A stretch of DNA of 38,722 nt from Sporichthyaceae bacterium. GTDB lineage: Bacteria; Actinomycetota; Actinomycetes; Sporichthyales; Sporichthyaceae. Shown in pieces: positions 19,916 to 22,868 of this stretch; within the stretch, counting starts at the first letter, position 1; each line of letters starts with the position of its first letter. Where the stretch lies: NCBI GenBank assembly GCA_036493475.1, contig DASXPS010000050.1:1-38722 (forward strand). The letters run 5' to 3'. A program made the translations under genes and the position numbers. The notes beneath the pieces are model-generated. The model did no database searches. It had not been told where the DNA came from and worked only from the letters and a program-made list of their open reading frames with translations.

Positions 19916-20953
19916 TCAGTCGAAGTCGACCAACGAGTACTCGCGCAGCTTGTGCAGGCTGTGCGTGCTTTCGATCAATCGCGTGGTGCCGGACTTCGAG
20001 CGCATGACCAGGGAGTGCGTGGTCGCCGAGCCGGCCCGATAGCGCACGCCACGCAACAGTTCGCCGTCGGTGATGCCGGTGGCGACGAAAAACGCGTTGT
20101 CCCCCCGCACCAGCTCGTCGGTGGACAGCACCGCGTCCAGGTCCAAGCCGGCGTCGATGGCCTTCTGCCGCTCGTCGTCGTCCTGCGGCCAGAGCCGGCC
20201 CTGGATCATGCCGCCGATGCACTTGATCGCACACGCCGCGATGATCCCCTCGGGGGTGCCGCCGACGCCCATCAACAGGTCGCAGCCGGTGCCCTCCGAC
20301 GCGGCCATGATCGCTCCGGCCACGTCGCCGTCGGTGAGGAATTTGATGCGTGCGCCGGTGGCCCGGATCTCCCCGGCCAGCTCCTGGTGGCGCTCGCGGT
20401 CCAGCAGCACCACGGTCACGTCGTGCACGTCGGAGTGCTTGGCCTTGGCCACCCGACGGATGTTCTCCGATACGGGTAGCCGGATGTCGACGACCTCCGC
20501 CGCCTCCGGGCCGGTCACCAACTTGTCCATATAGAACACCGCGGACGGGTCGTACATCGAGCCGCGCTCGGCAACCGCGAGCACGGACAGCGCGTTGTTC
20601 ATCCCCATCGCGGTCAGTCGGGTGCCGTCGATCGGGTCGACGGCGACGTCGCACTCCGGCCCGGAGCCGTCGCCCACGCGCTCGCCGTTGAACAACATCG
20701 GGGCCTCGTCCTTCTCGCCCTCCCCGATGACCACCACACCGTTCATGGCGACCGTGCCGATCAGGTGTCGCATGGCATTGACGGCCACGCCGTCGGCGCC
20801 GTTCTTGTCCCCGCGCCCGACCCATCGGCCGGCGGCCATCGCGGCTGCCTCGGTGACGCGGACCAGTTCCAGTGCCAGGTTGCGGTCCGGAGCCTCGGCG
20901 CGCACCTCCAGAGCCGCCGGGATGGACGAACCGCGCGTTCCCTCATTCACCAT
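19916..20953 (-). CDS. glpX: Fructose-1,6-bisphosphatase, class II (GlpX)
   Basis: A 345-residue class II FBPase, the main gluconeogenic FBPase of actinobacteria, hydrolysing fructose-1,6-bisphosphate with Mg or Mn. Metal-site motifs [13 protein letters not shown] and [10 protein letters not shown], and the substrate region [16 protein letters not shown], are present. The ATG at 20953 is preceded by GGGAGG at 7 nt and lies inside the end of xseB (11-nt overlap), so the two are co-transcribed. It corresponds to Rv1099c. With pckG in the same window this gives two committed gluconeogenic steps. Confidence 0.95.
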
Positions 20954-21173
20954 CGGACACCCTCCCGGCTTCGTGCGCGGCCAACCGTTCCCGCGCGCCG
21001 TCCAATCGCTCCCGGCAGATCTTCGCCAGGGACTCACCCTGTTCCCAGAGCGCGAGCGACTCCTCGAGCGTCAGACTGCCCGCCTCGAGCCGGGCGACAA
21101 CCTCGGTCAGCGCCTCGCGCGCCTGCTCGTAGCTCAGGCCGGGATCACTGTCTCCCACGCTGCCTGCCGTCAC
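20943..21173 (-). CDS. xseB: Exodeoxyribonuclease VII small subunit
   Basis: A 76-residue Xse[38 protein letters not shown] covers the conserved two-helix region that packs on XseA. The GTG at 21173 follows a TAGGGT -10 by 6 nt, so a leaderless transcript is likely. In most actinobacteria xseB directly follows xseA; here a GNAT gene on the opposite strand lies between them and xseB has its own promoter and leads glpX. Confidence 0.93.
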
Positions 21174-21176
21174 GGG

Positions 21177-21192
21177 CCCACCCTATGGTGGG
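21177..21192. promoter_or_regulatory. Compact bidirectional promoter for xseB and the GNAT gene
   Basis: The two start codons are only 23 nt apart. TATGGT (21184-21189, plus) lies 7 nt before the GNAT ATG and TAGGGT (complement of 21180-21185, minus) 6 nt before the xseB GTG; they share the central TA. The whole is an inverted repeat, CCCACC-CTAT-GGTGGG. Confidence 0.5.
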
Positions 21193-21196
21193 GCGC

Positions 21197-21670
21197 ATGC
21201 CTACCGTTCGTCGTGCCACCGCGCTGGACGCCGCCGAGCTCGTGCGGTTGCGGGAGATGTTGTTGATCGCGATGGGCCAGGACGTCGAGGAGTCGAACTG
21301 GCGGGGAAACGCGATGGCCCAGTTCGAGCAGCGCATCGCGCCCGGCGGTGACCTCACCGGGTTCGTGATCGACGGGGACAACGGGGAGCTCGCGGCCAGC
21401 GCGGTGGGGCTGGTGGTGACCTCGCTGCCGGGTCCGAATCGGCCGGACGGGCGTACGGGTTACCTGCTCAACCTGGCCACCGACCCCAAGTACCGCCGGC
21501 AGGGCAACGCGAGGGCGGTGGTCACCGCATTGTTGGACTGGTTCCACGGCCAGGGCGTCAAGCGCATCGAGCTGCATGCCAACGAGCGCGGCGAGATGCT
21601 CTATGCCCAGCTCGGCTTCACCGAGCACACCACCAAGGCGCTCACCTACGCGGAGCGCCGCCCGTTGTAG
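21197..21670 (+). CDS. GNAT family N-acetyltransferase
   Basis: A 157-residue GNAT enzyme. Motif A, the acetyl-CoA pyrophosphate loop, is visible as [26 protein letters not shown], and motif B as [14 protein letters not shown]. The acceptor substrate cannot be told. The ATG start is set by the -10 box 7 nt upstream. Its 3' end overlaps the 3' end of xseA by 29 nt on the opposite strand, and it interrupts the usual xseA-xseB pair. Confidence 0.85.
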
Positions 21671-22868
21671 CGCGTGCGGCCAGCGTGCCGCCGGCCAGTC
21701 GCAGGGTCAGTGCCTCCTCCGCCACCACATCCGATGGGTCCCGCAGCACGCTGCCGTCGGCGCGTTGCACGATTGCATACCCGCGGTCCAGCGTGGCTTG
21801 CGGGGACAACGCGCGGAGTTGTTCCCCCCGATGCGTCAGTTCGTCCGCGGCCCGGTCCAGGTGGTGCCGTACGCAGCGCAGCGCGCGGTCCCGCAACGAT
21901 TGCACGGCGTCGGCGCGGGCGAGGAATCCGCGGGCCGGATCGGCCAACGCCGGCCGGCCCAGTAAAGAGGTCAACCAGCTCTGCTCCCGGTCCAACCGAG
22001 TCGACACCGCGCGCCCGGCCCGGACCCACAACGCGTCGACCAATACCAGTTGCTCGGCCAGGTCGGGCACCAGCAGCTTGGCCGCATCGGTCGGCGTGGA
22101 CGCCCGCACGTCGGCGACGGAGTCGAGCAACGGGTTGTCCTGCTCGTGCCCGATCGCGCTGATCACCGGAGTGCGACAGGCCGCCACCGCCCGCAGCAGA
22201 GTCTCGTCGGAGAACGGCAGCAGGTCCTCCACCGAGCCGCCGCCGCGGGCGATCACGATGACCTCGACCGCGGGGTCGGCGTCCAGCTCGGCCAGTGCGC
22301 CGATCACCTCGGCCGCCGCGAACGGCCCCTGCACCGCCACCGGCCGGGTGTGGAACTGCACCGCCGGCCAGCGCCGACGGGCGTTGTCCACCACATCGTG
22401 CTCGGCCGCACTGGCCCGCCCACAGATCAGGCCCACGCCCGCGGGTAAGAACGGCAATCGACGCTTGCGCGCCGGGTCGAACAGCCCTTCCGCGGCCAAC
22501 AGCCGACGCAGCTGCTCGAGACGGGCCAGCAGGTCACCGAGGCCCACCGCACGGATCTGTTCGGCGGCAAAGGACAGTGAGCCGCGGGGGACCCAGTAGG
22601 TCGGGCGGCCGAAGATCACCACTCGGGACCCTTCGGTGACCTCGGGCACCACCTGTTCCAGCACCTGGCGGGGGCAGGTCACCTGCAGGGACACGTCCGC
22701 GATCGGGTCGCGCAACTGTAGGAACATCGTGGAGGTGCCGGGACGCCGGGTCAGCTGCGTAACCTGGCCCTCCACCCAGACCTTTCCCAGCCGCGCCACC
22801 CACTGTGCTATCAGGTGCGCCACCGTCCGCACCGGGACCGGGGATTCCGCGCTGGTCTGCAGGGCCAC
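21642..22868 (-). CDS. xseA: Exodeoxyribonuclease VII large subunit
   Basis: A 408-residue XseA, the catalytic subunit of the single-strand-specific exonuclease VII. The N-terminal OB fold ([19 protein letters not shown]) is followed by the nuclease region with [41 protein letters not shown] and [26 protein letters not shown], then the coiled-coil stalk and a C-terminal LDRGYAIV segment. The GTG at 22868 has no Shine-Dalgarno but a TAGCCT -10 at 7 nt. The subunit genes are split by the GNAT gene. Confidence 0.94.

Follow-up and report, generated by a model that had tools for sequence, protein, structure and literature searches.

Overlapping predicted leaderless promoters in the 23 nt between xseB and a divergent GNAT gene of a Sporichthyaceae bacterium

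Organization of the xseB-GNAT locus

We analysed a stretch of 38,722 nucleotides (hereafter the window) from a genome of 4.27 Mb assembled in 217 contigs. On the minus strand, xseA (22868-21642), xseB (21173-20943) and glpX (ATG at 20953) were found in this order, and a GNAT acetyltransferase gene carried on the plus strand forms an inverted insert between xseA and xseB. The 5' part of glpX overlaps the 3' end of xseB, and the two genes are likely to lie on one transcript. The features of the locus are as follows.

19916..20953, minus strand: glpX (PF03320; start read from the sequence)
20943..21173, minus strand: xseB, exonuclease VII small subunit, GTG start (PF02609, E 8.5e-18; NCBIfam xseB above cut-off)
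at or next to 21173, minus strand: predicted transcript start of xseB
21174..21196, unstranded: divergent intergenic region of 23 nt, GGGCCCACCCTATGGTGGGGCGC, with both predicted promoters (from the sequence; start codons from protein family matches and relatives)
21177..21192, unstranded: CCCACC-CTAT-GGTGGG symmetry, read as two TAnGGTGGG promoters facing apart and not as an operator
21180..21185, minus strand: TAGGGT, putative -10 element of xseB with a 6-nt spacer to the GTG (from the sequence; TANNNT at 6-7 nt in xseB loci)
21184..21185, unstranded: TA step common to both boxes, -12T/-11A of each (from the sequence)
21184..21189, plus strand: TATGGT, putative -10 element of the GNAT gene with a 7-nt spacer to the ATG (from the sequence; NANNNT at 6-7 nt in linked loci)
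21197..21670, plus strand: GNAT acetyltransferase gene (PF00583, E 1.3e-12), whose transcript is predicted to start at or next to 21197
21642..22868, minus strand: xseA (PF02601)

The sequence-only reading had placed two leaderless promoters here, and its coordinates, hexamers, spacers (7 nt on the plus strand, 6 nt on the minus strand), shared TA and CCCACC-CTAT-GGTGGG symmetry all match the sequence. The two predicted -10 elements are opposed and overlap, which is the arrangement of a bacterial bidirectional promoter, and each gene has a TANNNT element 6-7 nt before its start codon, which is that of an actinobacterial leaderless gene. Measured from the start codons, the predicted starts are 24 bp apart. 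A second in-frame ATG is present at 21185, upstream of the GNAT ATG and within the box; the start at 21197 was favoured because the counterpart of this ATG is out of frame in a same-genus relative.

At the other end of the insert, the 3' ends of the GNAT gene and xseA are convergent and overlap by 29 nt (21642-21670), so that their transcripts would be antisense there. A consensus scan of positions 20600-21800 found a terminator-like site at 21239-21254 (1 versus 0.3 expected).

Conservation of the two boxes

The leaderless signal was measured in 539,764 bases of the same genome (the window and 40 further stretches), in which 481 ORFs with a length of 60 codons or more had a coding-like GC content by codon position. 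In place of gene-finder calls, every in-frame start close to the 5' end of an ORF was counted. TANNNT preceded an in-frame start with a spacer of 6 nt in 26 of these ORFs and of 7 nt in 14, as compared with a mean of 3.9 and a maximum of 9 at the other spacers from 0 to 30 (5-8 excluded). The accessible text of PMC10937400 describes the same TANNNT motif for leaderless transcription start sites (TSSs) of M. tuberculosis.

We then compared 40 xseB loci, made up of the 30 best matches of a 379-genome list and of loci from other searches; 16 duplicate or overlapping loci had been removed, loci were chosen by best hit, and the counts carry no phylogenetic weighting. TANNNT was found 6 nt before xseB in 16/40 loci and 7 nt before it in 8/40 (24/40 together), and in at most 4/40 at every other spacer from 0 to 35. 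The boxes read TAGGGT, TAAGGT or TAGGCT, both with and without a GNAT gene at the locus. No TANNNT was present 5-8 nt before xseB in 16 of the 40 loci. In two genomes of the same family that have no GNAT gene there, xseB lies next to xseA, whose stop codon is overlapped by the box.

A separate observation concerns the f18 genomes (L146, L147, L149, L150, L152 and L153), where xseB lies directly 3' of xseA and its ATG is preceded by TAGGGT or TAAGGT at a spacer of exactly 6 nt. This position suggests a candidate internal leaderless promoter for xseB.

Of the two promoters, that of xseB is conserved more widely. A contig search with the single GNAT protein returned no confirmed relative, and a search with a GNAT alignment returned 20 loci. 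NANNNT was found 6-7 nt before the GNAT gene in 15/16 xse-linked loci; the full TANNNT was found in only 3/16, G being common at -12, and NANNNT also occurred at a spacer of 12 in 6/16. The same-genus relative retains TATGGT, 6 nt before the GNAT gene. In a tree of 43 GNAT proteins (16 xse-linked, 27 unlinked), two label changes were needed, with weak deep support (45/58), so that the xse-linked genes may have had one origin or more than one. Together, the conservation of the boxes and the genome-wide TANNNT peak lend comparative support to the prediction of two leaderless promoters.

The distance between the xseB and GNAT start codons varied widely among the 13 loci in which it was measured, a set that leaves out the linked loci L043, L059 and L064 (xseB start unclear, or other DNA between the genes). 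It was 23 nt in the window, 113 in the same genus, 18, 19 and 18 in f11, 50, 50, 51 and 50 in f16, and 0, 0, -2 and 59 in the remaining loci. None of the other 12 loci, the same-genus genome included, showed sharing of the TA step. In the three f11 loci the NANNNT boxes overlap by five bases, with -7T and -11A pairing reciprocally, which is the commonest geometry in the accessible text of PMC10268837 on bidirectional promoters. In L039 and L040 there is no gap between the two start codons, and each box falls within the coding sequence of the partner gene; in L075, which has no box at 6-7 nt, the start codons overlap. Each promoter tends to persist while the distance between them drifts. The abutting or overlapping start codons of L039, L040 and L075 read CACGTG or CATG.

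Recurrence of the shared-TA geometry

The geometry of the window was counted as a pattern made of a start codon, 6-7 nt, a box, the shared TA, a box, 6-7 nt and a start codon. In the genome of the window it was found at 6 places, versus 4 for a reversed control (TA to AT, RTG to GTR) that is not composition-matched and 1 when both spacers were lengthened by 3 nt. Only two of the six places are flanked on both sides by real genes: the window itself and C217:36337-36365 (L159:1938-1966), where a glpK gene (NCBIfam GlpK above cut-off) and a methyltransferase gene diverge from 23 nt containing TAGGGT and TAGAGT with a shared TA. In the 540-kb sample, back-to-back sites at most 60 nt apart numbered 3, versus a mean of 0.95 after Markov resampling; at 22-24 nt there were 2, versus a mean of 0.45 and a maximum of 2 in 40 resamples.

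Over 98 genomes of the class, 522 shared-TA places were found as compared with 117 when the spacers were shifted by 3 nt to 9-10, with more shared-TA places in 87 genomes, fewer in 4 and equal numbers in 7. The reversed control, again of unmatched composition, gave 359 places. In G054 and G014, picked for their enrichment after the counts were known, there were 11 and 8 shared-TA places and none in the reversed control; 16 of these 19 places, to which the coding test was applied, are flanked on both sides by frames whose GC3 is coding-like. For the 18-bp geometry (TANNNTA), 198 places exceeded the 46 obtained with shifted spacers but not the 443 of the reversed control. In the genome of the window the shared-TA pattern, as a bare string, is barely beyond chance. 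The boxes in their context are clearly beyond it, since each stands exactly at the start of one of two real genes that diverge, with a spacer kept in relatives.

A preference for sharing the TA over non-overlapping boxes was considered and rejected. With spacers of 6 nt on both sides, six genomes contained 20 non-overlapping pairs (gaps of 0-30 nt) versus 14 shared-TA pairs (a single geometry), and because the shared form requires two fewer fixed bases this comparison gives no evidence of selection. TA is its own reverse complement. A box on one strand therefore brings with it the -12T and -11A of a box on the other strand, which then lacks no more than its -7T, and ease of mutation suffices to account for the recurrence of the geometry.

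A probable bidirectional promoter and its alternatives

From the sequence, spacing, conservation and recurrence described above we infer that the 23 nt probably act as a bidirectional promoter of the ~23-bp class, in which two -10 elements of the housekeeping sigma factor share -12T and -11A. The housekeeping-sigma polymerase would occupy one -10 element or the other, in one orientation at a time, and would initiate at or next to each start codon, so that both mRNAs would be leaderless and be translated as such. At ordinary promoter strength, xseB-glpX and the GNAT gene would both be expressed in the same cell, and interference between the two directions would matter only if one of them were strongly activated. 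Close divergent leaderless genes would reach this geometry repeatedly, because one promoter already gives two key bases of the other.

Bidirectional promoters have been defined by divergent TSSs 7-25 bp apart, 18 bp being the commonest distance and 10 and 23 bp also common (accessible text of PMC10268837 and PMC12825309). The window resembles the ~23-bp class studied by the Grainger laboratory (same sources) in its opposed overlapping -10 elements and its predicted starts 24 bp apart. It differs from that class in that each predicted start falls on a start codon, so that the mRNAs would be leaderless, and in that promoter sequence would take up all of the intergenic region. The term 'leaderless' is absent from the accessible text of PMC12825309. 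Our literature searches found no match for 'xseB' with 'leaderless' and, by title and start of abstract, no paper on doubly leaderless bidirectional promoters. Like actinobacterial leaderless genes in general, both genes have TANNNT 6-7 nt before the start codon, where the genome-wide peak also lies; unlike the usual case, the two promoters overlap and face apart.

With a gene inverted between xseA and xseB, which are neighbours in same-family relatives, the locus resembles a noncontiguous operon. In contrast to such an operon, xseB carries its own conserved box, and transcription through the inverted GNAT gene would therefore not be required. An independent xseB promoter would allow expression of xseB-glpX despite the GNAT gene between xseA and xseB.

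Among the alternatives, the one that survives best is leadered transcription of one or both genes, from promoters located farther upstream in the coding sequence of the partner, with the G-rich run acting as a ribosome-binding site. GGTGGGG and GGGTGGG are indeed located 5-12 nt before the starts, and the 16/40 xseB loci that have no box at the start could be read in the same way. However, the G-run is not kept where the box is, the spacers being TCTTGTC in G002 and G003 and GACCCG before the GNAT gene in G001, and the scan of positions 20600-21800, a consensus scan only, detected neither a sigma-70-like -35/-10 pair nor a promoter-like site. We therefore regard leadered transcription as unlikely.

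Slightly less probable still is a regulatory switch, in which sharing of the TA makes transcription of xseB-glpX and of the GNAT gene mutually exclusive, as the sequence-only reading had proposed. Its premise holds: the geometry of the boxes, together with the steric exclusion stated for bidirectional promoters in the accessible text of PMC12825309, rules out simultaneous binding of two polymerases. The same text reports that, in E. coli, strong activation of one direction can lead to repression of the opposite one, interference being seen only after such activation, and that 5/5 E. coli bidirectional promoters tested were too weak at basal level to compete (PMC12825309). Exclusive binding does not therefore imply exclusive expression. 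Moreover, neither the same-genus relative (113 nt) nor any of the 11 other measured linked loci shares the TA, although the boxes of three of them (f11) overlap in a different way. The proposed exclusive transcription is thus unsupported, and the start-codon gaps in relatives rule out mutual exclusion as a conserved property of the locus.

A dimeric regulator that controls both genes through the symmetric sequence as its operator is highly improbable: the sequence contains a perfect 6-bp inverted repeat centred on the overlapping boxes, but CCCACCNNNNGGTGGG occurs at one place in the 4.27-Mb genome, as does its reversed control, the repeat is missing at the orthologous place in the G001, G002, G003 and f11 loci, and one arm matches the spacer of the xseB promoter, TAGGGTGGGC, also found in f18 genomes without a GNAT gene there. 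With neither a conserved palindrome nor repeated genomic copies, the operator reading was discarded and the symmetry did not hold up as a separate signal; both promoters read TAnGGTGGG and, facing apart, yield it unaided.

Elsewhere in the same genome, a long and nearly perfect inverted repeat was noticed at about 1350-1390 of L102 (G000:C18), at an in-frame start of an ORF that by eye resembles a winged-helix nucleotidyltransferase. This repeat is possibly an operator.

Returning to the proposed bidirectional promoter, the idea that its arrangement is general stands evenly balanced. Actinomycetes may repeatedly pack divergent genes round doubly leaderless promoters, the overlap geometry setting how far apart the start codons lie (22-24 nt for a shared TA, ~18-20 nt for -7T/-11A pairing), with L039 and L040 as the extreme. 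'Start codon - promoter - start codon' would then be a recurrent element of many independent origins. If so, in many divergent gene pairs of Actinomycetes no regulatory region could be set apart: ~29 bp would hold both promoters and both translation starts. Promoter geometry could then improve start-codon calls for such pairs, which would also be natural tests of the coupling of expression by overlapping promoters.
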